Assembly: GCA_025363755.1 (NCBI GenBank) | Contig: JANYLQ010000047.1 | Span: forward strand, 1 to 64,000 | DNA: 64,000 nt | Direction of reading: 5' to 3' | From: Hyphomicrobiales bacterium | Lineage (GTDB): Bacteria; Pseudomonadota; Alphaproteobacteria; Rhizobiales; Aestuariivirgaceae | Shown here: in pieces, positions 22,807-41,738 of the stretch | Position numbering within the stretch: position 1 is the stretch's first letter | How the letters are laid out: each line of letters begins with the position of its first letter | Notes under the pieces: model-generated | Databases searched by the model: none | What the model was told of the DNA's origin: nothing | Seen by the model: only the letters and a program-made list of their open reading frames with translations | Position numbers and translations under genes: made by a program

Positions 22807-22989
22807 ATGGTGCACCAAGGAGACCAAACCCTCGATAAGCAGTCTGTATCTATTGAACTGCGCTTGAACTCACAGCAGCGGGAATTGCTGCAGCGCGCCG
22901 CTGTAACAGAAGCACTGCCGACTATCGAAGCCTTGGTGCGACTGGCCATTTCTGAAACCGCCGCCGCAGCGGAGAAATCGAATGTCTGA
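22807..22989 (+). CDS. Small (60 aa) protein resembling the C-terminal extension of the adjacent DUF1989 protein
   Basis: Preceded by AAGGA; overlaps next CDS by 8 nt; VSIELRLNSQQRELLQRAA resembles ITIELSPEEYAVFERSA of the 22982-23932 product. Confidence 0.6.
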   Translation: MVHQGDQTLDKQSVSIELRLNSQQRELLQRAAVTEALPTIEALVRLAISETAAAAEKSNV

Positions 22990-23932
22990 TCGAAAAGCAG
23001 TTTTTGAATGGATCATGCAGCCGGGCACAGGCAAGGCACTGGAGTTACGCAAAGGCCAAATTTTGCGCGTCGAGCAAATTGAAGGCGCACAATGTGTCGA
23101 CTTCAACTGTTTCAATTTGCACGACTACAAAGAATTCATGCATTGTGGCCGCACACGAACAGTCCACGGTTTCAACCCTAGCAAGGGCACATTTCTCTGG
23201 TCTGCGCCGCCGCGCGAGCAGGCGATGATGTATATTCTTGAAGATACCTATGGCCGGAACGACGTGTTGTTCCCGCGCTGCAGCGCTTATCTGTATGAGA
23301 GCGCCTATGGCTTTCACCAGCACACAAATTGTCATGATATCCAAACAGAGGCTCAGCGCGAATACGGATTAACCCCCGATGATGTGCACGACAGTTTCAA
23401 CATGTTCATGTGCACAGAAGTAACGCTTGATGGTCGGGCCAGCATCACACGACAAGTGTCAAAAAAGGGAGACTACATAGAGTTGTTGGCGCTGATGGAC
23501 GTTCTTGCCGTGCCCAATGTGTGCGGCGCAGACGTTATGCGCACCAGCAATTTTGGGCTGAAGCCAATAAAACTAGAAATTTTCGAAGCGAGCGAAAAAG
23601 AACTTGCATCCGTTCCTAAGTTGCCCGTGTTAAAAAGCCAGCGCACCCCAGCGGATTTCAGGAACGCTCAGATTAAGTCAACCCGAGCCTTGGTGGCGGA
23701 CCGCAGCTATAGCGCCAGCTTTCAGAATACACCGCTTGTTGAAGAGGCGATTACCATTGAACTTTCGCCAGAGGAATACGCCGTGTTTGAACGCAGTGCG
23801 CGCGCTGATATTTATGGCGACGACATGCCGTCCGCGTTGCGTGACTTCGTTTTCACCTGGTGGGAAAATAAATACCTGAGGGCTGCAAGCGGTGCCCCCC
23901 GAATAGAGACAGTTGGCGTAGATCAGAAATGA
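22982..23932 (+). CDS. DUF1989 (urea carboxylase-associated) family protein with C-terminal extension
   Basis: ELRKGQILRVEQIEGAQCVDFNCFNLHDYKEFM...KKGDYIELLALMDVLAVPNVCG...; about 110 extra residues at the C-terminus. Confidence 0.82.
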   Translation: MSDRKAVFEWIMQPGTGKALELRKGQILRVEQIEGAQCVDFNCFNLHDYKEFMHCGRTRTVHGFNPSKGTFLWSAPPREQAMMYILEDTYGRNDVLFPRCSAYLYESAYGFHQHTNCHDIQTEAQREYGLTPDDVHDSFNMFMCTEVTLDGRASITRQVSKKGDYIELLALMDVLAVPNVCGADVMRTSNFGLKPIKLEIFEASEKELASVPKLPVLKSQRTPADFRNAQIKSTRALVADRSYSASFQNTPLVEEAITIELSPEEYAVFERSARADIYGDDMPSALRDFVFTWWENKYLRAASGAPRIETVGVDQK

Positions 23933-24897
23933 TGAGCGAGCTTAATATTCCCATCATTGATATTAGCTCGCTCTTTATTGGTGATGTTGCGGGCACAGAA
24001 AGTGTGGCACAGCAAATCGGCGCTGCATGTCGCGGCATCGGATTTTTCTATATTGTCGGACATGGCATTTCAAAAGTGTTGCTGGAAAATGTTTTTGCAG
24101 CAAGTGCCGCCTTCTTTGCTCAACCATCGGATGAAAAGCAAAAAGTGCTTTATTCCGCTCAGTCAGGAAATCGCGGTTATGTGCCCATGAAGGGTGAGGC
24201 GCTGGATCCCTCAAAACCCTCAGACCTCAAAGAAGCGTTTAATATTGGTTTCGACATTCCTGCCGATGATGACGAAATTCATGCTGGCGTAAAATTTCGC
24301 GCGCCGAACCTCTGGCCAAAGCAACATGAGTTTCGTCAAGCGATGTTGGAATACTATACAGCGGCTTGGGGAATCGGTCGTGCATTGCACAAAGCGTTTG
24401 CAATGAATCTTGCATTGCCACCAACTTATTTTGAAGACAAGCTTGACAGGCCCATGGCGGTCTTGCGGTTGCTGCATTATCCACCACGGCCAGAGCACGT
24501 CGAAACAGGGCAACTCGGTGCTGGGGCACATACGGACTATGGCTGCGTAACCTTGCTCGCAACTGATAACGTTGGAGGCTTAGAAGTTCAGACCCGAGAT
24601 GGCACGTGGCTTAAGGCACCGCCAATGCCCGAAGCACTGGTGTGCAACATAGGTGATTGCTTGATGAGGTGGACGAATGACATTTATGTGTCCACACCCC
24701 ACCGCGTCGTCAATCCGAAAGGCCGCGAGCGCTATTCTGTGGCATTTTTTCTCGATCCAAATCCAGACGCCGTCGTCGCATGTTTGCCAACATGTTGTGG
24801 CCCGGATAATCCACCACGCTATCCATCCATTCGCGGCGACGACTATTTGCAAAGCAGGCTTGACGCCACCTATGCAAAGGGGGGGCTAATAGGATGA
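23929..24897 (+). CDS. Isopenicillin N synthase family 2OG-Fe(II)/nonheme iron dioxygenase
   Basis: GIGFFYIVGHGI, GAHTDYGCVTLL, STPHRVVNPKGRERYSVAFFLDPN (HxD...H and RxS motifs). Confidence 0.9.
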   Translation: MMSELNIPIIDISSLFIGDVAGTESVAQQIGAACRGIGFFYIVGHGISKVLLENVFAASAAFFAQPSDEKQKVLYSAQSGNRGYVPMKGEALDPSKPSDLKEAFNIGFDIPADDDEIHAGVKFRAPNLWPKQHEFRQAMLEYYTAAWGIGRALHKAFAMNLALPPTYFEDKLDRPMAVLRLLHYPPRPEHVETGQLGAGAHTDYGCVTLLATDNVGGLEVQTRDGTWLKAPPMPEALVCNIGDCLMRWTNDIYVSTPHRVVNPKGRERYSVAFFLDPNPDAVVACLPTCCGPDNPPRYPSIRGDDYLQSRLDATYAKGGLIG

Positions 24898-25049
24898 AAG
24901 TGTCTGCACATTTTTTGATCTTCACAATTAAAACTGCAATTATTTTACGCAAAGCTTCTGGTCACGCTCCGAGACCTTCACAAGGAAAACAGGCCTAACC
25001 CTCTAAATCAATTGATTTTTCTGATATCAAAACAATCAGCGAGATATAA

Positions 25050-25065
25050 TGGCACAGCCCTTGCT
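25050..25065 (+). promoter_or_regulatory. Sigma54 (-24/-12) promoter
   Basis: TGGCACAGCCCTTGCT; GG and GC doublets separated by exactly 10 nt; upstream of ATG 25093. Confidence 0.75.
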
Positions 25066-25092: not shown

Positions 25093-26223
25093 ATGAAAAC
25101 AATCGATAGTTACACTGCCGCGTTGCCGCCGAGACATCGCAGGAGCAGCGTTACTTTTACGTCAGATCGCTGGCGCACAACTTCGGAAGGCGTAATCATT
25201 GCTTTCGTGGCTCTGCTCACATCAGGACTGTTATTTTCATTATTCCTGCTATTGCTCGGCAAAAATCCGATGCAATTTTTTGCACTAATTTGGCAAGGCG
25301 GATTCGGAAGTTCCTTCTCCTTGCAAAACTCATTACAGCGCGCTGCACCCCTGATCCTAACAGGACTTGCCTTTGCCATTCCGGCGAAGATCGGGATGAC
25401 GATGATTGGCGCTGAGGGCGCTCTTGTGCTTGGCGGGTTTTCATCAGCGGCAGTTGCAATACCCCTCGTGTCGACCCATCAACCCGTTGTTCCTACGATG
25501 ATGATAATGGCACTCACTGGTATTTTGACAGGCGCTCTGTGGACTGGATTTGCGGGTTGGCTGAAATACAAGCGCGGCGTCAACGAAACCATTTCAACGC
25601 TTTTGCTAACCTATATTGCCATCGCCATTATGAATTTCTTCGTCGAAGGACTGCTTCGTGATCCCGCGTCGAAAAACAAAGCGTCCACAATGCCTATAGG
25701 CCAAGACTATATGGTAGGTCTGATGCCGGGCATGGATGTGCATTGGGGCCTTGTCGTGGGTGTGGTTTTTGCTGTTGCTTTGCATGTTTTGATGACGCGC
25801 ACCACGTTTGGATTTGCCGTTCGCATCAGTGGCGGCAACGTACGCGCGGCACTGGCACAAGGCCTGCCAGTTGGAAAATTGATTTTAACCTGTTCGGCCA
25901 TCGCCGGCATGTGCGCGGGTCTTGCAGGCTACTTTGAGGTTGCCGCAATTCAAGGACAGGCTAACGCATCGCTTGCGGCTCGTTATGGCTTTACCGGAAT
26001 ACTAGTTTCCTTTTTGGCCCGTCACAACGCGCTTGCCGTTATCCCTGTTGCGATCATGTTTGGTGCGATCAGTGCAGCGGGCGGCCTCATTCAACGCCGT
26101 ATGGATATGCCCGATGCCACGGCGCTGGTCTTGCAGGGCATCATTTTTGTGGTGCTGCTGGCCAGTGAAACAGTTTATGGGCGCTTTGCGATGTTCCAGC
26201 CCAAACTTGAAACCGCGCGCTGA
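25093..26223 (+). CDS. BMP-type ABC transporter permease (YufP-like)
   Basis: ALIWQGGFGSSFSLQNSLQRAAPLILTGLAFAIPAKIGMTMIGAEGALVLGG; start moved to ATG 25093 because the sigma54 promoter lies inside the listed upstream extension. Confidence 0.87.
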   Translation: MKTIDSYTAALPPRHRRSSVTFTSDRWRTTSEGVIIAFVALLTSGLLFSLFLLLLGKNPMQFFALIWQGGFGSSFSLQNSLQRAAPLILTGLAFAIPAKIGMTMIGAEGALVLGGFSSAAVAIPLVSTHQPVVPTMMIMALTGILTGALWTGFAGWLKYKRGVNETISTLLLTYIAIAIMNFFVEGLLRDPASKNKASTMPIGQDYMVGLMPGMDVHWGLVVGVVFAVALHVLMTRTTFGFAVRISGGNVRAALAQGLPVGKLILTCSAIAGMCAGLAGYFEVAAIQGQANASLAARYGFTGILVSFLARHNALAVIPVAIMFGAISAAGGLIQRRMDMPDATALVLQGIIFVVLLASETVYGRFAMFQPKLETAR

Positions 26224-27143
26224 TGACCGCAGCTGACATTGCATTAATTCTCACCGCAATGCTTGGCGGGGCAATGCGAGTGTCAACCCCTTTCATCTTT
26301 GTAGCACTGGGCGAAACGCTCACCGAAAAATCGGGCCGGATCAATTTGGGCCTCGAAGGCACTCTCGTGCTCGGCGCTATGATTGGTTATGCGATTTCCT
26401 ATCAAACGGGATCACCGTGGCTTGGTGTTCTTGCCGCTGGGTGTTCAGGTATGTTACTCGGTTTGATCCATGGCGTGATATGCAGCCTGCCCCGTGTAAA
26501 CGATATTGCCGTTGGCATTTCCATGATGTCGCTGGGAACCGGCCTCGCGTTCTTTTTTGGCAAGCCCTATATCCAGCCTTCAGCACCACGGCTTCAATCT
26601 TTAGAGTTCGGTGGCTGGGCCAGCAATCCTGCGATAAAATCGGCTCTTGAAATCAACCCGCTCTTTATCGTGGGCATCGTGACTGCATTTATTATGTGGT
26701 GGGGGTTGGCCAATACCAAGCTGGGGCTCATCCTCCGCATGACAGGTGATTCAGAACCCGCAGCGAGGGCCATGGGCATTAACCCCATAAAGGTTCGTGT
26801 TGTAGCAACGGTATTGGGCGGCTTTCTAGCGGGTGTCGGTGGGGCATTCCTTTCCTTGTCTTATCCCGGCAGCTGGAACGAAGGCCTCTCATCCGGCCAA
26901 GGCCTGATGGCGGTGGCACTGGTAATATTCGCACGGTGGAACCCTCTGCGCTGCATTGTTGCGGCCCTGCTGTTTGGTGCTGCTGGTGCAATTGGCCCTG
27001 CCCTGCAATCGGTGGGTATAAGCCAAGGTTACTATTTCTTCAACGCGGCACCTTACATTCTCACACTCATCATTATGATATCGACGGCACGCTCTACCAC
27101 GGCGGCACGCGAAGCGCCGGGCGAGCTTTCGATCATCAAATAG
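26223..27143 (+). CDS. BMP-type ABC transporter permease (YufQ-like)
   Basis: MRVSTPFIFVALGETLTEKSGRINLGLEGTLVLGAM...RMTGDSEPAARAMGINPIKVRV. Confidence 0.92.
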   Translation: MTAADIALILTAMLGGAMRVSTPFIFVALGETLTEKSGRINLGLEGTLVLGAMIGYAISYQTGSPWLGVLAAGCSGMLLGLIHGVICSLPRVNDIAVGISMMSLGTGLAFFFGKPYIQPSAPRLQSLEFGGWASNPAIKSALEINPLFIVGIVTAFIMWWGLANTKLGLILRMTGDSEPAARAMGINPIKVRVVATVLGGFLAGVGGAFLSLSYPGSWNEGLSSGQGLMAVALVIFARWNPLRCIVAALLFGAAGAIGPALQSVGISQGYYFFNAAPYILTLIIMISTARSTTAAREAPGELSIIK

Positions 27144-27152
27144 GAGGAAGAT

Positions 27153-27836
27153 ATGAGTGCCGAAACCCACATCGCCTCCACACCCTATGCGTGGCCTTAT
27201 GACGGCGATTTGCGCAGCGACACTTCGGCACTGCTCATCATCGACATGCAAACAGATTTCTGCGGGTCGGGTGGCTATGTTGATGTTATGGGCTATGACC
27301 TTTCGCTCACGCGCGCACCGATTGAACCTATTCGTTGCGTTTTGAAACTGGCTCGGGAAAAAGGTTGGACAGTCATCCACACCCGCGAGGGCCATCGCGC
27401 AGACCTTTCTGATTTGCCGGCAAACAAGCGCTGGCGCTCGCAACAAATTGGTGATGAAGGCCCGTGTGGCCGAATTCTTGTTAGAGGTGAGCCGGGATGG
27501 GAGATCATCGCCGAGCTGGCACCGCTGCCCGGCGAACTTGTAATCGACAAACCGGGCAAAGGTTCATTCTATGCCACTGATCTTGAGTTGCTTTTGCGCA
27601 CCCGCAGCATTCGCAATTTGATCCTGACTGGGATAACGACTGATGTCTGCGTTCACACCACCATGCGTGAAGCCAACGATCGCGGATTTGAATGCCTTCT
27701 TCTCGAAGACTGCTGTGGTGCAACCAAATATGAAAATCACCTGGCGGCAATCGATATGGTCAAAATGCAAGGCGGGGTGTTTGGCGCCGTTGCCGACAGC
27801 AAGGCTGTCTGTACTACTTTGGAGACTTTATCATGA
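27153..27836 (+). CDS. Isochorismatase-family cysteine hydrolase, biuret hydrolase (BiuH)-like
   Basis: [42 protein letters not shown]...[17 protein letters not shown]...[34 protein letters not shown]...[13 protein letters not shown] catalytic residues present. Confidence 0.85.
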
Positions 27837-29353
27837 ACACCGGTGCACGCGCCTTTTCTCTTGAAACTGTGGGCATGAGCAAAACCTTCGGCCAGCTGGT
27901 GGCCCTCGAAGATGTATCCATCAGTGTTAAGCCCGGCGAATTTCATGCTTTGCTGGGTGAAAATGGTGCAGGCAAGTCCACCTTAGTTAAATGCATCATG
28001 GGGTTTTATCAGCCAACGCGAGGCCATCTGATTGTTGACGGGCAGGAAAAGCAGATCAAATCCCCCGCTGACGCAAGGGACAGCGGCATTGGCATGGTTT
28101 ACCAGCACTTCACACTGGTTCCCTGCTTAACGGCGGCTGAAAACATGGTTATCTCACGCGGTGATGCGCCGTCGATTATTGATTGGACCAAAGAGAAAAA
28201 AGCCTTGGCAACCTTCATGGACCGAATGCCGTTTCAAGTGCCGTTGAATATACCTGTATCTGGGCTTGCAGCTGGCGAAAAACAGAAGCTGGAAATCCTC
28301 AAGCAACTTTACCTTGATCAGCGTTTCCTTATTTTGGACGAGCCAACGTCTGTTCTGACACCAGGCGAAGCTGATGAAATTCTGGGGCTTGTGCACACCA
28401 TGGCCCAAAAGGGAGAAATCAGTGTACTGATGATCACCCACAAATTCCGCGAGGTAAAGGCCTTCGCAGATAGCGTAACGGTTCTGCGGAGGGGGAAGTT
28501 GACAGGAACCGGGAAGGTTTCGGACCTATCCACCGATCAGATGTCACACATGATGATTGGTGAAACACAACTGCGTAAAAGCGATAGCCGCAAAGGCGAT
28601 GTAAAGCCCAAAAGTCGCATCGAACTCATTGGATTGTTTGTTGACGACAATCAGGGCCTGCCCGCCGTGGAAGCAGTCGACCTCAAAATCAATGGCGGTG
28701 AAGTTCTCGGCATCGCAGGTGTTTCCGGCAACGGACAAACTGAACTGCTTGAGGCACTGGCCGGGCAACGTCCTCTGAAAGACGGCCGCATTTTTGTGAA
28801 TGGCAAACCCTTTGAAGCGTCACGCAAGGATTATGACGCTTTCAAAGTGTTCGGGCTGCCCGAAGAACCGTTGAAAAATGCCGCCGTAAAGCGCATGAGC
28901 GTTGCGGAAAATCTGGCCTTTCGTACCTTTGACAAGCCACCAGTGACCAGTATTGGCTGGTGGTTGAAACCACCGAAAATGAGAGAAAAGGCCATTGACC
29001 TGATTGCGCAGTTCCGCGTGAAAACACCTTCGCCTGAAACGCCGATTGAAAATCTTTCCGGCGGCAATGTGCAGCGAACGATATTGGCGCGCGAGCTTTC
29101 AGGCGATGTTGAAGTTCTCATCGTCGCCAACCCCTGTTTCGGCCTCGACTTTGCCTCAGTTGCAGAAATCCGCGCCCAGATCATTCACCAGCGCAACAGT
29201 GGTGCAGCCATTTTGTTGATCTCCGAAGACCTCGACGAAATCCTTGAACTGTCGGACCGCGTCGCGGTGATGTCGGAAGGGCAGATTAATTATGTCGTTG
29301 CATCCGCTGAGGCAGATCGCAACACAATTGGCAAACACATGGCAGGGCATTGA
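27833..29353 (+). CDS. BMP-type ABC transporter ATP-binding protein (YufO-like, two NBDs)
   Basis: [25 protein letters not shown]...[21 protein letters not shown]...[18 protein letters not shown]. Confidence 0.92.
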
Positions 29354-30024
29354 TGATCAAAGTTGCGGCTGCTCCCTACCCCTATATTTTCCCGCCGGGC
29401 AAGACAGCGCTTGTCGTGATCGACATGCAGCGCGACTTCATTGAACCGGGCGGATTTGGCGCTGCCCTTGGCAACGATGTGTCGCGGCTGTCAGCGATTA
29501 TTCCAACAGTCGCCAAATTACTTTCAGTGTTCCGCAACAATGGCTGGCCGGTCATCCACACGCGCGAAGCTCATAAACCCGATCTCTCCGATTGCCCCCC
29601 GGCAAAGATTGCGCGGGGGTCTGCCAGCTTGCGCATCGGTCAGACGGGAGCCATGGGGCGGTTGTTGGTGCGCGGCGAAGCAGGCAACCAGATTGTTGAC
29701 GCGCTCGCGCCTTATAATGGTGAAATCACAATCGACAAACCTGGGAAAGGCATGTTTTGGGCTACTGGCTTACACGAAACGCTGCAAGACCAAGGGATAA
29801 CGCATCTGGTTTTTGCCGGGGTCACGACGGAAGTCTGTGTACAAACTTCCATGCGTGAGGCCAATGATCGTGGCTATGAATGCTTGCTTATCACAGATGC
29901 CACAGAAAGTTATTTTGCCGAATTCAAGGCCGTGACGATTGCAATGATCACCGCGCAAGGTGGAATTGTGGGTTGGGCAACACCACTGGCTGAACTCGAA
30001 AACGCGGTGGCATCAAAGTCATGA
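29350..30024 (+). CDS. Second isochorismatase-family cysteine hydrolase
   Basis: [19 protein letters not shown]...[17 protein letters not shown]...[33 protein letters not shown]. Confidence 0.88.
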
Positions 30025-30209
30025 GCGAAACACCATTTGACGCCGATCTAATGATTACTGTGATGAGTGCGTTCTTGGATTTGCCAATCCAACCTGAATA
30101 TCGCCAAGGCGTGGCGTCACATCTTCTGGCAAGCCATCGCATTGCGAAGAGCTTTCTTGATTTGGCACTCGACGACGAAGCTGAGCCTGCTCCGGTATTT
30201 ACCCCATGA
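30021..30209 (+). CDS. atzG: DUF4089 small protein, AtzG/HpxX-like
   Basis: 62 aa, [60 protein letters not shown]; overlaps the AtzE homologue by 4 nt. Confidence 0.78.
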
Positions 30210-31600
30210 GCAAGACAGCCTCTGAGATCGCATCTGCTGTGCGGTCTGGAAAAACCACCGCACGCGCCCAAGTACAAGAGGCTTTACAGCGAATTGAAGA
30301 GCTCAATCCTGCGCTCAACGCCTTCACGGACGTGCTGACAACCCGCGCCCTGCAACGGGCCGATAATATTGACCTCTGTATTGCTGCAGACTCGGATCCC
30401 GGCCCCCTTGCCGGTGTCCCCTTTGCCGTCAAAAACCTGTTCGACATCGAAGGCTTTCCCACGCTTGCCGGTTCCAAGATCAACAACGCGCATACGCCTG
30501 CAACAAAAGATGCAACCCTGATTGCGCGACTGGAAGCCACCGGCGCCATCCTCATAGGTGGGTTGAATATGGGCGAATACGCCTATGATTTTACAGGTGA
30601 AAACCGTCACTATGGACCATCGCGAAATCCCCACGCACCCAATCATATGTCGGGCGGTTCTTCAGGTGGCTCGGGTACGGCTGTGGCCTCTGGAATGGTG
30701 CCCTTGTCGCTTGGTTCAGACACCAATGGCTCAATCCGCGTGCCGTCCTCGCTTTGCGGACTGTTCGGCCTGAAGCCAACCTATGGCAGGCTTTCACGAA
30801 ACGGCACCTTCCCATTCGTGGCAAGCCTCGATCATTTGGGCCCCATGGCGCGTTCAACGCTTGATCTGGCCTTGGCCTACGATGCTATGCGCGGCCACGA
30901 TGTAGAAGATCCAGCTGCATCGGCGAAGGAGGCTCCAGCCACCTTGCCTCTTCTTAACAAAGGTCTTGATGGTTTGCGCATTAAGCGCGCAGGCGGATAC
31001 TTCAGCAGTGGCGGCCATGCGGAAGCTTTTGCCGCAGTTGATCATGTTGCAAAACACTTGAATGCCCTCGCAACAATAGAAATTTCCGGGGCCAAGGAAG
31101 CGCGCTCTGCGGCCTATATCATTACCATGGCGGAAGGTGCAGCACTCCATCTTGATCGCCTGCGCATTCATCACGCAGACTTTGATCCGGATGTGCGGGA
31201 TCGTTTGATTGCTGGCGCTATGATCCCTGGAGCTTGGGTCGCCAAGGCCCAAAAATGTCGGCGTGTATTTCACACAGAGATGATGAAGGTTTTCGATTCC
31301 TGTGATGTCATTCTTGCACCAGCAACACCATGCTTTGCCCCCAAAATTGGGCAAACCACCATTGTTATTGATGGTCAGGAACTGCCACTAAGGCCCAACA
31401 TGGGGCTGTTCACCCAGCCGATTTCATTCATCGGCCTGCCCGTCGTGTCTGTGCCAGTCTGGCTGCCGGGGGAGAAGCTGCCCATTGGCGTGCAAATCAT
31501 CTCTGCGCCTTGGCGTGAGGATATTGCTTTACGGGTATCAGCTTGGTTGGAAAATGCAGGCGCCGTATCTGCCCCGATAGCTAAAGTGGAAAGCGCATGA
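30206..31600 (+). CDS. atzE: AtzE family amidohydrolase (amidase signature; 1-carboxybiuret hydrolase/HpxY-like)
   Basis: GVPFAVKNLFDIEGFPTLAGSKI...MSGGSSGGSGTAVASGMVPLSLGSDTNGSIRVPSSLCGLFGLKPTYGRLSRNG. Confidence 0.88.
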   Translation: MSKTASEIASAVRSGKTTARAQVQEALQRIEELNPALNAFTDVLTTRALQRADNIDLCIAADSDPGPLAGVPFAVKNLFDIEGFPTLAGSKINNAHTPATKDATLIARLEATGAILIGGLNMGEYAYDFTGENRHYGPSRNPHAPNHMSGGSSGGSGTAVASGMVPLSLGSDTNGSIRVPSSLCGLFGLKPTYGRLSRNGTFPFVASLDHLGPMARSTLDLALAYDAMRGHDVEDPAASAKEAPATLPLLNKGLDGLRIKRAGGYFSSGGHAEAFAAVDHVAKHLNALATIEISGAKEARSAAYIITMAEGAALHLDRLRIHHADFDPDVRDRLIAGAMIPGAWVAKAQKCRRVFHTEMMKVFDSCDVILAPATPCFAPKIGQTTIVIDGQELPLRPNMGLFTQPISFIGLPVVSVPVWLPGEKLPIGVQIISAPWREDIALRVSAWLENAGAVSAPIAKVESA

Positions 31601-31983
31601 TGATCATCAATGACCCCGCCGTCCATGCTGAAATGTCGGCGTTGTTTGAGCGGTATGAAGAAGCGCTTGTATCAAACAATATAGCGTTGCTTGATGAATT
31701 TTTCTGGAATGATGAACGCACCATTCGCTATGGCGGTGCAGAAAATCTTTATGGCAACGCCGAAATCCTGTCCTTCCGCAAAGCTCGGTCTGCGCAAGGA
31801 CTCTCCCGTCATCTATCACGCACCGTCATCACAACCTTTGGAACAGACATGGCAACTTGCTCCACCTTGTTTCACCGCAACAACGCACCGGACAAGGTTG
31901 GACGGCAAATGCAAACATGGATACGCTTGCCCACAGGCTGGCGCATTGTTGCGGCTCACGTGAGCTTGATCCCTGTAGAATAA
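31597..31983 (+). CDS. atzH: AtzH/HpxZ-like (DUF3225) protein
   Basis: VHAEMSALFERYEEALVSNNIALLDEFFWNDERTIRYGGAENLYGNAEILSFRKAR; follows AtzG-AtzE with 4-nt overlap. Confidence 0.83.
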   Translation: MMIINDPAVHAEMSALFERYEEALVSNNIALLDEFFWNDERTIRYGGAENLYGNAEILSFRKARSAQGLSRHLSRTVITTFGTDMATCSTLFHRNNAPDKVGRQMQTWIRLPTGWRIVAAHVSLIPVE

Positions 31984-32026
31984 TCCACAAAATTGGATAA
32001 TTATTAGGCAGCTTGCCCAATATTCA

Positions 32027-32038
32027 CACTTTAAAGTG
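32027..32038. repeat. Perfect 12-bp palindrome CACTTTAAAGTG (candidate activator site)
   Basis: CACTTTAAAGTG equals its own reverse complement; about 43 nt upstream of the sigma54 element at 32081. Confidence 0.4.
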
Positions 32039-32080
32039 CTGACCACTAATAAAACACCAACCATTTCAATAGATTGATGA

Positions 32081-32096
32081 TGGCACACCCTTTGCA
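32081..32096 (+). promoter_or_regulatory. Sigma54 (-24/-12) promoter of the guanidine operon
   Basis: TGGCACACCCTTTGCA; GG-N10-GC spacing; predicted TSS near 32107, directly before the riboswitch. Confidence 0.78.
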
Positions 32097-32107
32097 AAGC
32101 TCGTTGT

Positions 32108-32220
32108 GAGTTGGTGGCTAGGGTTCCGACGCTGGTTCAAGCGTGCTGGTCCGAGAGCTGCCACCAGTGGGGAAACATCCAACTGGGCGCACGGCGGGAT
32201 AAAAACCCGGGAGACCTCGT
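32108..32220 (+). ncRNA. Guanidine-I (ykkC) riboswitch
   Basis: GGTGGCTAGGGTTCCGACGC...GCTGGTCCGAGAGCTGCCACC...GCGCACGGCGGGATAAAAACCCGGGAGACCTCG: conserved GGGTTCCG, GGTCCGAGAG and ACGGCGGGATAAAA..CCCGGGAGA blocks. Confidence 0.92.
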
Positions 32221-32284
32221 AAACCAAGGGATTGGTGGTGCGAAGGTTTTTGCCCTGCTTGTCCTTTCAAAAAGGGAATCGAAT

Positions 32285-33358
32285 ATGCAGGGCTTATCTA
32301 AATTCTTCTCCGTGGCAACTTTGGCAGCCACTTTGGTTTTCGGCGTTTCATCGCAAGCGCTGGCAGCGCCAAAAACCGAATTCAAAGTCGCATGGTCAAT
32401 CTATGTAGGCTGGATGCCTTGGGGCTATGCCGCCGATCATGGCATTGTTAAAAAATGGGCCGACAAATACGGTATCAAAATAGATGTAACGCAATTCAAC
32501 GACTACGTTGAATCGATGAACCAATATACGGCGGGCACTTTCGACGCAGTAACGCTGACCAACATGGACGGCCTTTCCATTCCTGCCGCCGGTGGCGTTG
32601 ACACAACAGCTGTGATCGTAGGCGACTTTTCCAACGGAAATGACGCGGTGATTTTGAAAGACAAAACCACACTGGCAGACATTAAAGGCCAGAATGTCAA
32701 TCTGGTACAATTCTCCGTGTCGCATTATTTGCTGGCGCGCGCACTTGATACCGTGAAACTGACTGAGCCTGATGTGAAAGTTGTGAACACATCTGATGCT
32801 GATATGGCCGCGGCCTATAAAACGCCGGCAGTGACTGCTGTTGTAACGTGGAAGCCCATAGTCTCCACAATTCTTGAAGATCCATCGGCCAAAAAAGTTT
32901 TTGACAGTTCACAAGTGCCCGGTGAAATTATCGATTTAATGGTGGCAAATTCCGCCGTGTTGAAAGACAATCCCAATTTCGGCAAAGCCTTGACAGGCAT
33001 TTGGTATGAAACTGCCGCCCTGTTGAAAGCAGACACTGCAGATGGCAAAGCTGCCCGCGAAGCCATGGGCAAAGCATCAGGCACTGATCTTGCCGGCTTC
33101 CAATCGCAAATCGATACTACAAAATTGTTCGACAAACCCGTTGACGCCTTGGCCTTCACGGATTCGCCTGCCTTGCCAACAACAATGGATTTGGTGAGAA
33201 AGTTCCTGTTCGAAAAGGCACTGTTGGGCAACGGCGCAAAATCAGCCGATGCGATTGGTATAGAAATGCCTGACGGCAAAATTCTGGGCGACGCAGCAAA
33301 TGTCAAATTGCGCTTTACAGATACCTTTATGAAAGAAGCGGCAGACGGCAAACTTTAA
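32285..33358 (+). CDS. ABC transporter substrate-binding protein (NMT1/TauA-like; guanidine/urea carboxylase-associated)
   Basis: Signal peptide MQGLSKFFSVATLAATLVFGVSSQALA; EFKVAWSIYVGWMPWGYAADHGIVKKWADKYGIKIDVTQFNDYVESMNQYTAG; ATG at 32285. Confidence 0.87.
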   Translation: MQGLSKFFSVATLAATLVFGVSSQALAAPKTEFKVAWSIYVGWMPWGYAADHGIVKKWADKYGIKIDVTQFNDYVESMNQYTAGTFDAVTLTNMDGLSIPAAGGVDTTAVIVGDFSNGNDAVILKDKTTLADIKGQNVNLVQFSVSHYLLARALDTVKLTEPDVKVVNTSDADMAAAYKTPAVTAVVTWKPIVSTILEDPSAKKVFDSSQVPGEIIDLMVANSAVLKDNPNFGKALTGIWYETAALLKADTADGKAAREAMGKASGTDLAGFQSQIDTTKLFDKPVDALAFTDSPALPTTMDLVRKFLFEKALLGNGAKSADAIGIEMPDGKILGDAANVKLRFTDTFMKEAADGKL

Positions 33359-33369
33359 GTACAAGCGCC

Positions 33370-34188
33370 ATGCGTTGGATAAATTCAAAACCCAACCGGG
33401 GGGTAAAGCTTTTTCTTATGCTTTTGCCTTTCATGGTTCTGGTTGTCGCTTACAGCATTGGATCGACAATACGTCTTGCCGATAATCCCAATGACAAGCT
33501 GCTGCCTGGCCTGTTGGGCTTTGGTGAAGCCATTCAACGCATGGCCTTCACGGCCGATCCTCACACCGGTGAGATTTTGCTGTGGTCTGACACCAAGGCA
33601 AGCCTGTTTCGAATTTTCTGTGGGCTTGGAATTTCAACTGTTTTGGCATTGGCAGTGGGAATGGTGATTGGAATGCTGCCCCATGTGCGGGCGTTGCTGG
33701 CACCCTTTGTTGCGGCCATCGCCATGGTGCCGCCATTAGCACTTCTGCCAATCCTGTTCATTGTTTTGGGTCTGGGTGAAACGTCGAAAATCGCGCTGAT
33801 TGTTATTGGCATTGCACCAACCATGATGCGCGAATTGGCCATGCGTGCGCAGGAATTGCCGCGCGAACAAATCATTAAGGCAGAAACTTTGAGCGGCAAT
33901 TCTTGGCAGATTGCATTGCGGGTTTTCCTTCCGCAAATTCTGCCGCGCCTCATCACCAGCATGCGCCTTCAGCTCGGGCCAGCATGGTTGTTTTTGATTG
34001 CGGCCGAAGCAATTTCATCTGACTCCGGCCTTGGCTATCGCATTTTTTTAGTGCGGCGGTATTTGGCCATGGATGTCATTTTTCCCTATGTGGGCTGGAT
34101 AACGCTTCTCGCAGTGTTGACAAGCCTGTTGCTGGACCAGTTCCGCAAATGGATTTTCCCATGGTCTGAATTAGAGGCCGCACCATGA
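33370..34188 (+). CDS. ABC transporter permease (SsuC/TauC-like, guanidine/urea carboxylase-associated)
   Basis: MVPPLALLPILFIVLGLGETSKIALIVIGIAPTMMRELAMRAQ...GNSWQIALRVFLPQILPRLITSMRLQLGPAWLFLIAAEAI. Confidence 0.9.
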   Translation: MRWINSKPNRGVKLFLMLLPFMVLVVAYSIGSTIRLADNPNDKLLPGLLGFGEAIQRMAFTADPHTGEILLWSDTKASLFRIFCGLGISTVLALAVGMVIGMLPHVRALLAPFVAAIAMVPPLALLPILFIVLGLGETSKIALIVIGIAPTMMRELAMRAQELPREQIIKAETLSGNSWQIALRVFLPQILPRLITSMRLQLGPAWLFLIAAEAISSDSGLGYRIFLVRRYLAMDVIFPYVGWITLLAVLTSLLLDQFRKWIFPWSELEAAP

Positions 34189-34955
34189 GCGAACTGGTGA
34201 TTGAAAACCTGTGGAAAGAATATGATTCTCAAATCGTTTTAGAGCGGATCTCGCTCACCATCGCGTCCCGCAGTTTTGTGGCCCTTGTTGGTCCATCAGG
34301 CTGTGGCAAGTCTACCTTTTTGCGCATTCTGCTTGGACAAGAACAAGCAACGCGCGGCAAAATATTAGTTGATGGGCAACCGCTTCCCGCTGAACCCGGC
34401 GCAGAACGTGGTGTGGTTTTCCAACAATATTCAGTTTTCCCCCATCTCACAGTTCTTGGAAATGTGCTTTTGGGAAAGGAATTTTCTGACGCCGGCATTA
34501 AAGCCAAATTGTTTGGCGCGGCCAAGCGCAATGCAATTTCTGAAGCAAAAGCCATGATCGAAGATGTTGGCCTTGGCGGTGCTGAAGATAAATATCCGTC
34601 ACAACTTTCTGGCGGCATGCGCCAAAGGCTGGCCTTAGCCCAAGCCCTGATGATGAAACCCAAAGTGCTTTTGCTTGATGAACCTTTCGGCGCGCTTGAC
34701 CCCGGAATCCGGGCCGACATTCACACGTTGATGAAACGCCTGTGGAACCAAACGCAAATGACTATTGTGATGGTAACTCACGATCTGCGCGAAGCGTTTA
34801 CGCTTGCTTCGCGCGTCATTGCCTTTGAGCGCCCGCGCGATAGGCCAGAAGAACGGGAAGGTTATGGCGCAACAATCACAAAAGACCATGAAATCTGGCC
34901 ACCACGTGTGGCCGGGGTGGCTTCAAACTATCGTCCTCCTGGAGAAGGCAAATGA
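34185..34955 (+). CDS. ABC transporter ATP-binding protein (SsuB/TauB-like)
   Basis: LVGPSGCGKSTFLRILLGQ, LSGGMRQRLALAQALMMKPKVLLLDEPFGALDP. Confidence 0.92.
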   Translation: MSELVIENLWKEYDSQIVLERISLTIASRSFVALVGPSGCGKSTFLRILLGQEQATRGKILVDGQPLPAEPGAERGVVFQQYSVFPHLTVLGNVLLGKEFSDAGIKAKLFGAAKRNAISEAKAMIEDVGLGGAEDKYPSQLSGGMRQRLALAQALMMKPKVLLLDEPFGALDPGIRADIHTLMKRLWNQTQMTIVMVTHDLREAFTLASRVIAFERPRDRPEEREGYGATITKDHEIWPPRVAGVASNYRPPGEGK

Positions 34956-35773
34956 CCCATATTGCAGCTTCAACCGCAGAACTGGCAGCGCGCCGCGCAC
35001 ACTATGAAGATCATCAGCGCAAAGGTCTTGAATTTGCGCCAAAGGCGTTTCCTCCTGCCAGTGCGCTTCCTGCAGAGGCGATTGATCCAGATTCAATCAT
35101 TCATCGCGAAATCATTCCGGGTGGTTGGTATTGGTCTACGAAAGTGCTTCGCGGTGAGGCACTGCGCGTGGAACAGGGTGAAGGCAATTCATCTGTTGCA
35201 ATCGTCGCATGGAACGCGAATGACACAACCGAACGGATAAATTTGGTTGATACTGCGAAGGTTCAATGGTCGACGATACTCAGCAAGGGCCGCGTGATTT
35301 TCTCAGATATGGGCCGCGTGATGTTTTCGTTAATCGAAGACAGTTTGGGCGCGCATGATTGTTTGATGGGTGGTTCAACCGCCGCATCAAACGCCGCAAA
35401 ATATCCCAACCAGAAAACGCGAAACACACGCGATAATCTGGTTCTGGTTGCTGGCAAGCTTGGTCTCGAGCGGCGAGATATTTCTGCGGTGCTCACACTG
35501 TTTTCGCCAACCAGTCTTTCAGAAGCCGGGGACTTTCAATGGCGAACGAACCTTTCAAACAGCGCCCATTACTGCGATCTCCGCGCCGAAATGGATATGT
35601 TTGTAGGTTTCTCAAACTGCCCGCATCCGCTCGATCCAGATCCAATCTACGCGCCGACGCCCGTCACGATCACGCGCTTTTGCGCGAGCGCGCCGAAAGC
35701 TGATGATCTGGCGCACACAGCTACCGCTGAGGCCGTTCGCGGCTTTCAAAACAACGCCTTGAAGTTGAAGTAA
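34952..35773 (+). CDS. DUF1989 urea carboxylase-associated protein, carboxyguanidine deiminase subunit-like (CgdA/B)
   Basis: EIIPGGWYWSTKVLRGEALRVEQGEGNSSVAIVAWNANDTTERINLVDTAKVQW; paired with a second DUF1989 gene and the carboxylase. Confidence 0.85.
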   Translation: MTHIAASTAELAARRAHYEDHQRKGLEFAPKAFPPASALPAEAIDPDSIIHREIIPGGWYWSTKVLRGEALRVEQGEGNSSVAIVAWNANDTTERINLVDTAKVQWSTILSKGRVIFSDMGRVMFSLIEDSLGAHDCLMGGSTAASNAAKYPNQKTRNTRDNLVLVAGKLGLERRDISAVLTLFSPTSLSEAGDFQWRTNLSNSAHYCDLRAEMDMFVGFSNCPHPLDPDPIYAPTPVTITRFCASAPKADDLAHTATAEAVRGFQNNALKLK

Positions 35774-35776
35774 GAA

Positions 35777-36397
35777 TTGAAAATGGTTGAATACCTCATT
35801 CCAGCTGAAGCGCCATGGTCTGGCATTGTTCGCAAAGGCCAAACTATCCGAATTGAAGACAGCTACGGACAGCAGGCAATTGACACGTTGTTCTACTGTC
35901 TCGACAACTTTGCTGAACGCTATTCCAACCAAGACACCATGCGCGAGCAAGGGGCAGCCTATGTTGGTGTTGGCACAAAAATATTTTCAAACGAAGGGCG
36001 CGTGATGTTGGCAGTGACAGCAGACAGTTGCGGCAGACATGACACGTCCGCGGGTGCGTGTTCATGTGAAAGCAACACGGTGCGCTTTGGGCACGGCACG
36101 AAATATCTTCATGCCTGCCGCGATAATTTCATTCTCGAAGTTTCAAAACACGGCATGAGCAAGCGCGATATTGTTCCCAACATTAATTTTTTCATGAATG
36201 TGCCGATCAAACCCACCGGCGAAATGACGATTGTTGATGGCATTTCAAAACCTGGAGACTATATAGAACTTGTGGCTGAAATGGATGTGCTCTGCGTCAT
36301 TTCAAATTGCCCACAAATCAACAACCCTTGCAACGGCTTTGATCCTACCCCCATTAAAGTAATTATTTATGATGGTGAAGGCAAAGCCAGTGTTTAA
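35777..36397 (+). CDS. DUF1989 urea carboxylase-associated protein, carboxyguanidine deiminase subunit-like (CgdA/B)
   Basis: YLIPAEAPWSGIVRKGQTIRIEDSYGQQAIDTLFYCLDNFAERYSNQDTMREQGAAYVGVGTKIFSNEGRVMLAVTADSCGRHDT. Confidence 0.87.
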   Translation: MKMVEYLIPAEAPWSGIVRKGQTIRIEDSYGQQAIDTLFYCLDNFAERYSNQDTMREQGAAYVGVGTKIFSNEGRVMLAVTADSCGRHDTSAGACSCESNTVRFGHGTKYLHACRDNFILEVSKHGMSKRDIVPNINFFMNVPIKPTGEMTIVDGISKPGDYIELVAEMDVLCVISNCPQINNPCNGFDPTPIKVIIYDGEGKASV

Positions 36398-39300
36398 AAA
36401 AGTCTTGATTGCCAACCGCGGTGAAATTGCGGTTCGTATTATTCGTACATTGAATAATATGGGCATCGCATCAGTCGCGGTCTATTCTGATGCCGATCGC
36501 TTCTCTATGGCGACATTGATGGCCGATGAGGCTGTGCGCCTCGGCCCAGCCCCCGCCAGTGAAAGCTATTTGAATATCGAAGCTGTGATTGCAGCGTGTA
36601 AAGTGACCGGAGCCGAAGCTGTGCATCCGGGCTATGGCTTTTTATCAGAGAACAAAGGCTTTGCAGAACGGCTGATCGCTGAAGGCATTGCGTTTATTGG
36701 CCCCCAGCCAAAGCATCTTTCTGCCTTTGGTTTAAAGCACACGGCGCGTGAATTGGCCAAGGCCAGCGGTATTCCGTTGTTGCCCGGCACTGATCTTTTA
36801 AAAAATATTGATGAAGCATTAAACGCCGCAGAAAAAATAACTTACCCCGTAATGCTTAAAAGCACCGCAGGCGGCGGCGGCATCGGCATGCAGCTTTGCG
36901 CAGACAGCAAACAACTTATCGCAAGTTTTGAAGCGGTGCAGCGAACGGCGAACACAAGCTTCGGCGATGCACGCGTGTATATCGAGCGTTTCGTATCAGA
37001 TGCACGCCACGTTGAAGTTCAAATCTTTGGTGATGGCAAAGGCAACGTTATTGCGCTGGGTGAAAGAGATTGTTCCCTGCAGCGCCGCAACCAGAAAGTT
37101 CTGGAAGAGACCCCCGCCCCTGATCTTACCCATGAAACACGCACGCGCTTGCATAAAGCCGCGGTTGATCTTGGAAAGGCGGTTTCCTATGAATCGGCGG
37201 GAACAGTTGAATCTATTTATGATCCACAGCGCGCTGAGTTTTATTTCCTGGAAGTCAACACGCGCCTGCAAGTGGAACATCCTGTCACCGAAGCAGTTTT
37301 CGGAATTGATCTGGTTGAATGGATGATCAGGCAAGCCGCTGGCGAAAATGTGCTGGGTGGTGCAGCAAATCTCAAGCCCAAAGGTGCTGCCATCGAAGTG
37401 CGTATCTACGCTGAAATGCCTCATGCCGATTTCAGGCCAAGTGCTGGCCTGCTGACCGAAGTGAAGTTTTCTGCCAACGCGCGCAATGATGGTTGGATTG
37501 AAACCGGCACAGAGGTGACACCGTTTTATGACCCCATGTTGGCCAAAGTGATTGTGGCGGCGCATGATCGGCCCAGCGCCATTGCCAAACTGCAACAGGC
37601 GCTTGCTGCAACATCAATATCAGGCATTGAAACAAATCTGGGCTATCTTCGTGCCATCGCAAATTCAGAATTGCTGGCAAGCGGCAAAGTGGCAACAACA
37701 GCGCTGCGCAATTTTTCTTTCACCCCAGACATCATTGAGGTGCTGGCACCGGGTGCGCAATCAAGCATTCAAGAATTGCCGGGGCGATTGGGCCTCTGGC
37801 ACGTTGGTGTTCCGCCCAGCGGGCCTATGGATGAACGGTCTTTCAAACATGCCAACCGGCTTGTGGGCAACGCCGATACTGTGGCAGCCCTAGAGCTTAC
37901 GGTTTCTGGCCCAACGCTCAAATTTTTCGCAGACGTTGCGGTGGCGTTAGCTGGTGCCGCGATGCCCATGCTCTGTGATGGAAAAGCGCTGCCACATGGC
38001 GAAGCCATCACCATCAAGGCTGGCCAAACCTTGCGCATTGGCACAATCAAAGGTGCAGGCCAGCGTGCCTATCTGGCCGTGGCAGGCGGCTTTGCTGCGG
38101 TGGAAGTTCTTGGCTCTCGCGCCACCTTTGGGCTTGGTCAATTTGGTGGCAATGCCACAGGGCCGCTGAAAGCTGGTCATGTATTACATCTGGCCCGCGC
38201 CGCTCATTCAATGCCTGCGAACCCCGCAACCCAAGCCGCGGAATTGAAGCATCATTGGAACGTGGGCGTACTTTACGGCCCCCACGGCGCGCCCGACTTT
38301 TTTCTGGAAAGCGATATCGAAACACTTTTCGCAACTGATTACGAAGTGCATTTCAACAGCGCGCGAACCGGCGTCCGACTGATCGGCCCTGCCCCAAAAT
38401 GGGCGCGCCGTGATGGCGGCGAAGCAGGGCTTCATCCTTCCAATCTGCATGACAATGCCTATGCCGTTGGTGCCATTGATTTCACCGGAGACATGCCTAT
38501 TATTTTAGGCCCCGATGGCCCAAGCCTTGGCGGCTTTGTTTGCCCCGCAGTGATCGCGCGCGATGAACAATGGAAAATGGGCCAGTTCAAACCCGGAGAT
38601 AAAATTTGCTTTCACAGCGTTGCAAGGCCAGATGATCCGATCGCTGCCCCTGCGGTTCATCGCCCGCGCGCCAACATGGGCTCACCGCTCTTGGCCACCT
38701 ATGATCAAGGGCCTGTTCCTGTGGTTTACCGCCGGCAGGGTGATGATAATCTTCTGGTTGAATATGGCGCGATGACGCTTGATATCGCTTTGCGATTGCG
38801 GGTTCATCTTTTGATGCAAGCCGTGGCCCAAGCGCGTGTGCCGGGTGTCATTGATTTAACCCCCGGCATCAGATCTCTGCAAATCCACTATGACGGAACC
38901 ATGCTAACCAGAAAGCGCCTGCTGGGCTTGCTTTTGGAAATCGAAAAATCGCTGGCCTCTGCCCATGATGTAAAAGTGCCCAGCCGCATTGTGCATTTGC
39001 CACTGTCTTGGAATGATCCTGATGCCGAATTGGCCATGCGCAAATACCAAGAACTCGTGCGCCCCAATGCGCCGTGGTGCCCTTCTAATATTGAGTTCAT
39101 CCGCCGCATCAATGGCCTGCCCGACGAAAAGGCCGTGAAGCAAATTGTTTTTGATGCAAGCTATCTGGTTTTAGGTTTGGGTGATGTTTATCTTGGCGCA
39201 CCGGTGGCAACACCCGTTGATCCACGCCACCGGCTGGTAACCACAAAATACAATCCTGCCCGTACGTGGACACCTGAAAATGCCGTGGGCATTGGCGGCG

Positions 39301-39926
39301 CATATATGTGCATCTATGGGATGGAGGGGCCAGGCGGTTATCAATTGTTTGGCCGCACCATTCAGGTGTGGAACACTTGGCGACAAACCCAGGTGTTCAC
39401 CAAGAACAAGCCCTGGCTATTGGATTTCTTTGATCAGATTCGGTTCTTTCCCGTTAGCCACCAAGAGCTTTCTGAAGCCCGCGCCGCGTTTCCGCATGGC
39501 GGCTATCCAATTAAAATTGAAGAGACCACTTTTTCTTACGCAGCCTATGAAAAACAATTGGCCAGCGATGCTACGTCCATCAGCACATTCAAGAACAAGC
39601 AACAAACCGCGTTCGAGGCCGAGCGCCAACGTTGGAAAGACGAAGGGCTGGATAGCTTTGTAAGCGATGACGGCAATGGCCCAACCATCGATGGCGATAT
39701 TCCTCAAGGATGCTTTGGCGTGGCAAGTTCAGTGCCCGGCAACATCTGGAAAGTGTTGGTGGAGCCCGGCTCCCGCGTTGCAGAAGGTGACACGCTTGCG
39801 ATTATTGAATCAATGAAAATGGAAATTGCTGTAACGGCCCATGATGCTGGCACTGTGCGGGAATTGCGCGCTGGCCCGGGCCGCACTGTTAAATCTGGCG
39901 ATATTATTGTTATATTGGAGAATTAA
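36369..39926 (+). CDS. Urea carboxylase family, probable guanidine carboxylase (biotin-dependent)
   Basis: 1185 aa; KVLIANRGEIAVRIIRT (biotin carboxylase), KipA/KipI-type domains (LGLWHVGVPPSGPMDERSFKHANRLVGN), IIESMKMEIAV (biotinyl-Lys); guanidine assignment from the riboswitch and CgdAB context. True start may be internal (e.g. GTG near 36390). Confidence 0.88.
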   Translation: MMVKAKPVFKKVLIANRGEIAVRIIRTLNNMGIASVAVYSDADRFSMATLMADEAVRLGPAPASESYLNIEAVIAACKVTGAEAVHPGYGFLSENKGFAERLIAEGIAFIGPQPKHLSAFGLKHTARELAKASGIPLLPGTDLLKNIDEALNAAEKITYPVMLKSTAGGGGIGMQLCADSKQLIASFEAVQRTANTSFGDARVYIERFVSDARHVEVQIFGDGKGNVIALGERDCSLQRRNQKVLEETPAPDLTHETRTRLHKAAVDLGKAVSYESAGTVESIYDPQRAEFYFLEVNTRLQVEHPVTEAVFGIDLVEWMIRQAAGENVLGGAANLKPKGAAIEVRIYAEMPHADFRPSAGLLTEVKFSANARNDGWIETGTEVTPFYDPMLAKVIVAAHDRPSAIAKLQQALAATSISGIETNLGYLRAIANSELLASGKVATTALRNFSFTPDIIEVLAPGAQSSIQELPGRLGLWHVGVPPSGPMDERSFKHANRLVGNADTVAALELTVSGPTLKFFADVAVALAGAAMPMLCDGKALPHGEAITIKAGQTLRIGTIKGAGQRAYLAVAGGFAAVEVLGSRATFGLGQFGGNATGPLKAGHVLHLARAAHSMPANPATQAAELKHHWNVGVLYGPHGAPDFFLESDIETLFATDYEVHFNSARTGVRLIGPAPKWARRDGGEAGLHPSNLHDNAYAVGAIDFTGDMPIILGPDGPSLGGFVCPAVIARDEQWKMGQFKPGDKICFHSVARPDDPIAAPAVHRPRANMGSPLLATYDQGPVPVVYRRQGDDNLLVEYGAMTLDIALRLRVHLLMQAVAQARVPGVIDLTPGIRSLQIHYDGTMLTRKRLLGLLLEIEKSLASAHDVKVPSRIVHLPLSWNDPDAELAMRKYQELVRPNAPWCPSNIEFIRRINGLPDEKAVKQIVFDASYLVLGLGDVYLGAPVATPVDPRHRLVTTKYNPARTWTPENAVGIGGAYMCIYGMEGPGGYQLFGRTIQVWNTWRQTQVFTKNKPWLLDFFDQIRFFPVSHQELSEARAAFPHGGYPIKIEETTFSYAAYEKQLASDATSISTFKNKQQTAFEAERQRWKDEGLDSFVSDDGNGPTIDGDIPQGCFGVASSVPGNIWKVLVEPGSRVAEGDTLAIIESMKMEIAVTAHDAGTVRELRAGPGRTVKSGDIIVILEN

Positions 39927-39929
39927 GAC

Positions 39930-41738
39930 ATGCTGCCAAAAGTTCTTGATCTGGTAAACCTGCGCAAGGCTTACGCTGCGGGCACAACACCTTTGGATGT
40001 GGTGGAGGAAGTGATCAAGCGCCGCAATGCGGCAACAGACAAAGCGATTTTCATTTCAGTGACATCCGATGATGCGCTTCGCACCGCTGCCAAAGAACTG
40101 ATGGCCCGCGCACCTGCTCCCAATAGTTTGCCGCTGTGGGGCGTTCCATTCGCGGCCAAGGATAATATCGACGCAGCAGGGCTTTCCACCACAGCAGGCT
40201 GCCCAGCCTATGCTTATGACCCGAAGGTTGATGCCACGGTGGTTGGGCGTTTGAAAATCGCTGGCGCGATGATCATCGGGAAAACCAATCTTGATCAATT
40301 TGCCACAGGGTTAAACGGCACGCGCTCACCTTATGGCGCGCCGCGTTCGGTGTTTCATGCAGACTATATTTCAGGTGGTTCAAGCTCAGGTTCATCCGTT
40401 GCAGTGGCCTCTGGCCTATGCACCTTTGCGCTGGGCACGGATACGGCAGGGTCTGGCCGTGTGCCGGCCGCCTTTAACAATTTGGTTGGCATTAAACCAA
40501 CGCCTGGCCTTTTGCCTAACACGGGCGCTGTGCCCGCTTGCAAAAGCGTTGATTGCATCACAATCTTCGGGGTGACCGTTGGTGACGGTGTTGCTATTCG
40601 CAAAGTGGCAGAAGGCTTTGACAGCGGCGATCCGTTCTCGCGCGTTGCCAAACCTGTGTCCCTTCCAGCATCAGGATTGCGGATCGGCGTATTAGCGGGG
40701 GCTGAACGTGAATTTTTTGGTGATGCAAATTTTGAGAAACTTTATGATCATGCCATCGCACAAGCAGCAAGCTTGGGGGCTGAAATCATTCCATTTGATT
40801 ATGCGCCGTTTCGGGAGGCAGCGTCCCTTCTTTATGAAGGGCCATGGGTGGCAGAACGCCTTGCCGCAATCGAGAAATTTTTATCCACCAACGCGAATGA
40901 CTTTGACCCCACGGTGCGCAAGATTATTGAAGGGGCAAAGCCGTTGACAGCTGTTGATGCCTTCAACGGCCTTTATAAGCTTGAAACCCTGCGTCATAAA
41001 ACAGATGCAGAATGGGCCAAGGTTGATGTGTTGCTTTTGCCAACAGCGCCCACCACGTTTACCGTGGCCGCGATGGTGGCAGACCCCATCGTGCTGAACG
41101 GCAGGCTTGGCCGCTATACCAATTTCGCCAACCTTCTGGGATGTGCCGCCATTGCCATCCCTGCCGGATTTGGCGACAACGGCCTGCCCGCTGGCGTTAC
41201 CCTGATTGGCCCCGCATTCACTGATGATGCAATGGCGCCATTTGCCGATGCCCTACACCGCAAAATGAATTGCGGCATGGGGATGGACCGCACAGCAGTT
41301 TTACCAAAGGAAAATATCATGGCCTCAGTTGAAGATAATTTTGTTCAAATCGTTGTGGTGGGTGCTCACCTCACGGGCATGCCGCTCAACCATGAACTCA
41401 CCACACCGGGTGGGCGCTTGTTCAAAACCTGCCGCACGGCCAAAGATTACAGGCTTTATGTTTTGCCCAACACCACACCGCAAAAACCCGGCTTAATCAA
41501 AGAGCCAGGCTTTGAAGGCGAAGGGTTGGAAGTTGAAGTGTGGGCCCTGCCCGCAGATGCATTTGGAAAATTCGTGCAAAGAATTCCAGCACCCTTGGGC
41601 ATCGGCAAATTGACACTTGATGATGGCAGTTCGGTTTCAGGTTTTCTCTGCGAAGCACACGCTGTTAAAGGCGCACAGGAAATTACCAGCCTTGGCGGTT
41701 GGCGCGCGTATATCCAGAGCAAAGCGAAGCAGAATTAA
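39930..41738 (+). CDS. atzF: Allophanate hydrolase
   Basis: 602 aa amidase plus C-terminal domain; GVPFAAKDNIDAAGLSTTAGCPAYAY, ISGGSSSGSSVAVASGLCTFALGTDTAGSGRVPAAFNNLVGIKPTPG. Confidence 0.93.
   Translation: MLPKVLDLVNLRKAYAAGTTPLDVVEEVIKRRNAATDKAIFISVTSDDALRTAAKELMARAPAPNSLPLWGVPFAAKDNIDAAGLSTTAGCPAYAYDPKVDATVVGRLKIAGAMIIGKTNLDQFATGLNGTRSPYGAPRSVFHADYISGGSSSGSSVAVASGLCTFALGTDTAGSGRVPAAFNNLVGIKPTPGLLPNTGAVPACKSVDCITIFGVTVGDGVAIRKVAEGFDSGDPFSRVAKPVSLPASGLRIGVLAGAEREFFGDANFEKLYDHAIAQAASLGAEIIPFDYAPFREAASLLYEGPWVAERLAAIEKFLSTNANDFDPTVRKIIEGAKPLTAVDAFNGLYKLETLRHKTDAEWAKVDVLLLPTAPTTFTVAAMVADPIVLNGRLGRYTNFANLLGCAAIAIPAGFGDNGLPAGVTLIGPAFTDDAMAPFADALHRKMNCGMGMDRTAVLPKENIMASVEDNFVQIVVVGAHLTGMPLNHELTTPGGRLFKTCRTAKDYRLYVLPNTTPQKPGLIKEPGFEGEGLEVEVWALPADAFGKFVQRIPAPLGIGKLTLDDGSSVSGFLCEAHAVKGAQEITSLGGWRAYIQSKAKQN

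Follow-up and report, generated by a model that had tools for sequence, protein, structure and literature searches.

The guanidine assimilation genes in the DNA analysed here, a 64,000-nt stretch of a Hyphomicrobiales contig (the window), appear to be controlled by two gates in series: NtrC- and sigma-54-dependent initiation under nitrogen limitation, then guanidine-dependent read-through, a reading to which we assign a probability of about 0.85. At the first gate, sigma-54 RNA polymerase would bind at 32081–32096 and start at ~32107, and only upon a nitrogen-limitation signal from an enhancer-binding protein, most likely NtrC. At the second gate, a guanidine-I aptamer would form the beginning of the transcript. 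The guanidine-bound aptamer, probably lengthened by a closing helix of the very first nucleotides, would keep nucleotides 32211–32222 out of a terminator-like hairpin; when guanidine is present, transcription would run on into the genes for uptake and for guanidine carboxylase, and without it transcription would stop. With the sigma-54 start at or just 5′ of the guanidine sensor, the genes should therefore be expressed only under nitrogen shortage and in the presence of guanidine. Dual control of this kind had been proposed in an initial annotation of the window, and comparison of more than 200 loci supports it strongly at the level of sequence. The same two-lock arrangement is predicted for guanidine-use genes across most of Pseudomonadota, wider than the single locus of that proposal.

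The element TGGCACACCCTTTGCA (32081–32096, forward strand), identified by pattern match and kept in position in relatives, is a near-perfect sigma-54 −24/−12 element with GG at −24, GC at −12 and 10 nt between them. It lies directly 5′ of the guanidine-I aptamer, within the 301 nt that separate hpxZ, which ends at 31983, from the gene for the substrate-binding protein, which begins at 32285. Counting 12 nt on from C−12 at 32095 places the predicted +1 at 32107 on the forward strand, the first nucleotide of the aptamer, or at the purines 32108–32109. The promoter directly 5′ of a guanidine-I riboswitch, as originally annotated, is thus recovered as a motif and an Rfam match at exact spacing, and the annotated start near 32107 holds as a prediction. 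The genome carries one copy of rpoN (413.9 bits), as a sigma-54 promoter requires. Ahead of the guanidine-I locus of Rhizobium etli CFN42, TGGCACTCCTCTTGCA occupies the same spacing as in the window.

We gathered guanidine-I matches with their flanking DNA from two sets of 398 genomes, one covering the order and the other the phylum, which gave 165 distinct loci, and searched for TGGC[ACG][CT]N6[TCG]GC at 15–100 nt 5′ of the CTAGGG anchor. The motif is present in 140 of these 165 Pseudomonadota loci, compared to a mean of 9.5 (6–15) in dinucleotide shuffles of the upstream 250 nt, 7 in downstream DNA and 17 when the upstream region is read on its reverse strand; the loci share descent, and locus counts are not independent events. 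The survey of other guanidine-I riboswitches that the initial annotation had proposed as a check thus came out in its favour. Counted by genus, the motif occurs in 38 of 45 in the order Hyphomicrobiales, 1 of 7 elsewhere in the class and 17 of 20 elsewhere in the phylum. An alignment of one sequence per genus on the aptamer alone, without selection for the motif, still gives modest rises in information content where the GG and GC fall. Among further named loci, with phyla assigned from the record titles, 59 of 75 from Pseudomonadota contain the motif and none of the 46 from Bacillota, Cyanobacteria, Actinomycetota and Campylobacterota does, and a third sample, Burkholderiaceae plus R. etli CFN42, contains it in 38 of 38. 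Where a substrate-binding protein is the first recognised gene, 110 of 121 loci have the motif.

The distance from C−12 to the anchor is 22–27 nt in almost all Hyphomicrobiales loci, which places +1 at the aptamer start, and mostly 46–96 nt outside the class, which places the start tens of nucleotides 5′ of the aptamer. Downstream of the sigma-54 start and before the aptamer, many beta and gamma loci (L055, L061, L063, L070, L078, L147 and others) share a conserved ACAATYTG..AATRG, which might belong to the leader RNA or act as a second promoter. Some Burkholderiaceae genomes carry two divergent guanidine-I riboswitches at a urea carboxylase-type locus, with a sigma-54 element before each. Such back-to-back pairs (L315, L317, L319, L321, L322, L324–L326 and L328) have their own elements at 46 and 51 nt, one riboswitch serving the substrate-binding protein and the other UAAP1.

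The motif is missing from 25 of the 165 loci, some of them in genomes with a full rpoN. Within the order, motif-less loci include leaders of EamA-type exporter genes (L010 and L178); L088 and L092 lead ureohydrolase-like genes. These gene families, judged by eye from the protein, are not the carboxylase operon. In Rhodobacteraceae (f58), all five scored loci are without the motif, and a check of seven genomes for rpoN gave no match in four, traces only in two and two divergent copies in one. By their sequence, the exceptions would thus agree with sigma-54 control, the motif being absent in a family where RpoN is mostly absent. The one same-genus relative that has the site (G022) yields no rpoN match, but its assembly is fragmented and ~90% complete. 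Hyphomicrobiales also contain many weak RF00442 matches of 33–46 bits (f43 g71 and similar), which may represent another ykkC subtype; L010 and L178, before EamA-type transporter genes and without the sigma-54 element, are two such loci below the cut-off.

Refinement of a motif upstream of the sigma-54 sites converges on TGCACCAAAATGGTGCA (TGCACC-N5-GGTGCA), mostly centred 50–130 nt before −24, which we take to be the classical NtrC site. In the 195 nt that precede each sigma-54 site, TGC-N11-GCA occurs in 63 of 189 loci versus 22 in shuffles, and neighbouring spacings remain at background. In cross-validation over four random splits, 38–45 of 95 held-out regions clear a threshold that 5% of shuffles reach, and column-permuted matrices give ~4–7 on average. 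Scanning the 195 nt 5′ of the promoter in the window with the refined matrix gave no significant NtrC site; the best match upstream (31942–31958, forward strand) scores 7.1, a value equalled by 15% of shuffles. Control by nitrogen limitation, considered probable in the initial annotation, is backed by the upstream NtrC motif of related loci, by the presence of ntrC and rpoN in the genome and by published NtrC dependence of the orthologous operon in Burkholderia cenocepacia. We infer that NtrC is the most likely activator in the source species. Elsewhere in the same genome, a strict sigma-54 site before an ABC transporter ATPase gene (L049, G000:C24:101844) has a good NtrC-like site, TGCACTTTATTGAGGCA, 135 nt 5′ of it.

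For the second gate, the aptamer at 32107–32215 (forward strand) matches RF00442 over its full length with 77.6 bits in cmscan, compared to an Rfam cut-off of 63 (E 4e-12), and as a member of this family it would bind guanidine. It is followed by a terminator-like hairpin ending in U5 (32211–32251, forward strand), the probable expression platform; folding of 32209–32250 gives −16.7 kcal/mol for GAGACCUCGUAAACCAAGGGAUUGGUGGUGCGAAGGUUUU ahead of the U5 tract, and we infer that termination is the output of the riboswitch. In about half of the alpha loci, the sequence at +1 pairs with the sequence just 3′ of P3. When own and swapped partners were compared over 85 loci, a score of 15 for this helix, P0, was reached by 41 own partners versus 19 (at most 28) swapped partners and 17 with the partner reversed, and among 45 loci with a score of at least 13 the helix begins no more than 1 nt from the predicted +1 in 30. 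The pairing itself varies (GTGCAG/CTGCAC, GTGCGG/CCGCAC, CATTGAG/CTCAGTG, TTGTGAG/CTCGTAA). In the window, TTGTGAG (32104–32110) could pair with CTCGTAA (32216–32222), both on the forward strand; if +1 is 32107, three of the seven bases of the 5′ strand precede it and only ~TGAG is transcribed. The 3′ strand shares nucleotides with the 5′ arm of the terminator-like hairpin, so that P0 and the hairpin exclude each other. These pairings are suggestive of a closing helix at the predicted +1 in alpha loci. Beta and gamma loci give no P0 signal (14 own versus 12.4 swapped), and among alpha loci spacing and helix start correlate weakly (rho 0.26, p 0.09). We tentatively consider, as a bolder extension that is somewhat doubtful, that the promoter and the riboswitch evolved together as a single unit: in Hyphomicrobiales, the position of the sigma-54 start would let the first nucleotides form a helix that closes the aptamer and opposes the terminator, making start choice part of sensing, and throughout Pseudomonadota the pairing of promoter and sensor would be the rule, coupling guanidine use to nitrogen starvation.

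Four other explanations of these data have to be weighed against sequential control by NtrC/sigma-54 and guanidine. The sigma-54 motif could be a chance match, since the strict pattern TGGCACNNNNNTTGCW has 6 matches in the 3.23-Mb genome, barely above the 3 obtained with the reversed pattern as a control; of the 6 matches, two (32081 and 25050) fall in the window. The comparison across loci makes chance very unlikely: with 140 of 165 loci carrying the motif before the aptamer where 9.5 are expected, and with its absence from other phyla, we rejected this explanation on the shuffle, strand and position controls. It is improbable, to a far lesser degree, that the main transcription is read-through from the biuret operon or originates at an undetected sigma-70 promoter, with the sigma-54 site playing a minor part. 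The upstream stop codon is only ~97 nt from the motif and the upstream operon has a sigma-54-like site of its own, both compatible with read-through; however, no sigma-70-like site was found in 31800–32400, and many families share the motif together with its spacing.

The two remaining explanations accept the sigma-54 site or the riboswitch and alter how either works. Sigma-54 control could be real with an activator other than NtrC, which would then answer another signal. The genome encodes, besides one ntrC above the curated cut-off, one ntrX and a third response-regulator-type activator (L040), each a candidate enhancer-binding protein for a sigma-54 promoter, and the window offers no good NtrC site; NtrX or L040 in place of NtrC is nonetheless unlikely in view of the strong enrichment of the NtrC motif upstream in relatives and the NtrC dependence reported in B. 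cenocepacia (PMC5491218). Somewhat less unlikely, though still clearly the weaker option, is a riboswitch that works on translation instead of termination. A strict terminator scan did not list the hairpin at 32211–32251, and visual inspection showed no conservation among relatives of the U-run that follows it. Termination is favoured by the stability of the hairpin in the window and the U5 that follows it, and a guanidine-I switch before such an operon has been presumed to be transcriptional (PMC12508155).

Downstream of the two predicted gates, the forward strand encodes an ABC substrate-binding protein (32285–33358; TIGR03427, 544.9 bits), an ABC permease (33370–34188) and an ABC ATP-binding protein (34185–34955), followed by UAAP1 (34952–35773; TIGR03425) and UAAP2 (35777–36397; TIGR03424), both above cut-off, a urea/guanidine carboxylase (36369–39926; TIGR02712, 1784 bits) and an allophanate hydrolase (39930–41738; TIGR02713, above cut-off), the gene order of a guanidine carboxylase operon. 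Alignment of the carboxylase to 3va7 places Asp at residue 704 (gaiDftgd), where yeast urea carboxylase has Asn (GAINFTGD). Replacement of this urea-contacting Asn by Asp presumably marks guanidine carboxylases; judged by this residue, the product of 36369–39926 is therefore probably a guanidine carboxylase. The genome contains a second guanidine-I copy (L002, G000:C52:44718-44826) with 61.9 bits, just under the cut-off; its sigma-54 element, TGGCATCGCCCTTGCA, is intact and lies as far from the aptamer as in the window. No recognisable operon was found downstream of it, the longest frames being ~100 aa, and this copy looks like an orphan or a decayed paralogue.

Published guanidine-I (ykkC class) riboswitches and guanidine carboxylase operons share the aptamer family, the downstream genes and the operon order with the locus in the window; unlike the present analysis, the descriptions consulted treat the riboswitch alone and do not discuss the promoter class. 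RNA-seq of a B. cenocepacia H111 ntrC mutant under nitrogen limitation shows the urea carboxylase gene I35_7286 at log2 −6.0, and I35_7282, 7283 and 7285 are also down, with an ABC periplasmic protein and an associated protein lost and 7282 a neighbour gene (PMC5491218). The orthologous operon is thus listed there as NtrC-dependent and named for urea carboxylase, whereas the paper makes no mention of guanidine, nor its relevant passages of a riboswitch. By analogy with Burkholderiaceae that have a similar locus, the H111 operon probably carries the riboswitch as well. A 2025 computed survey of sigma-54 regulons predicts COG3665 genes, 59% of them named urea carboxylase, as targets in the alpha, beta and gamma classes (PMC12316311); in its relevant passages these are not linked to guanidine or to the guanidine-I riboswitch. 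A 2025 review on guanidine mentions neither sigma factors nor nitrogen limitation. Within the partial coverage of our literature search, which leaves room for an earlier mention, nothing was found on guanidine or ykkC riboswitches together with RpoN or NtrC, and nothing relevant together with sigma-54. The conserved arrangement seen here, which would place guanidine assimilation in Pseudomonadota under dual control, is built from parts that are both already known.

This architecture predicts AND-gate behaviour of guanidine assimilation genes and bears on the open question why so many bacteria sense guanidine. A nitrogen-starvation promoter that precedes the sensor throughout the phylum and is absent outside it argues that the sensor serves mainly nitrogen scavenging there, not detoxification. 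It also suggests that guanidine riboswitch reporters could miss a response under nitrogen-rich conditions.

The second sigma-54-like element noted in the initial annotation is indeed present, as a strict pattern match (TGGCACAGCCCTTGCT, 25050–25065, forward strand) 44 nt 5′ of a plausible ATG. It precedes an operon of two ABC permeases, biuret hydrolase, ABC ATPase, a second BiuH-like protein, AtzE and HpxZ (25094–31983), and a weak NtrC-like dyad, TGCAATTATTTTACGCA, with TGC-N11-GCA spacing lies upstream of it (24935–24951, forward strand). No comparable element was found before the orthologous permease in 29 relatives (1 of 30 loci versus 1.4 expected), whose operons may begin with a gene other than the permease. 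A regulon shared by the 25050 and 32081 elements is plausible from the motif they have in common. Before the biuret operon, at 22982–24897, a DUF1989 protein is encoded beside a 2-oxoglutarate/Fe(II) dioxygenase whose best solved relative is annotated as an ethylene/succinate-forming enzyme; by analogy, and in comparison with MgdH/MgdL (PMC12508155), the two could possibly form a pair for demethylation or release of guanidino compounds.
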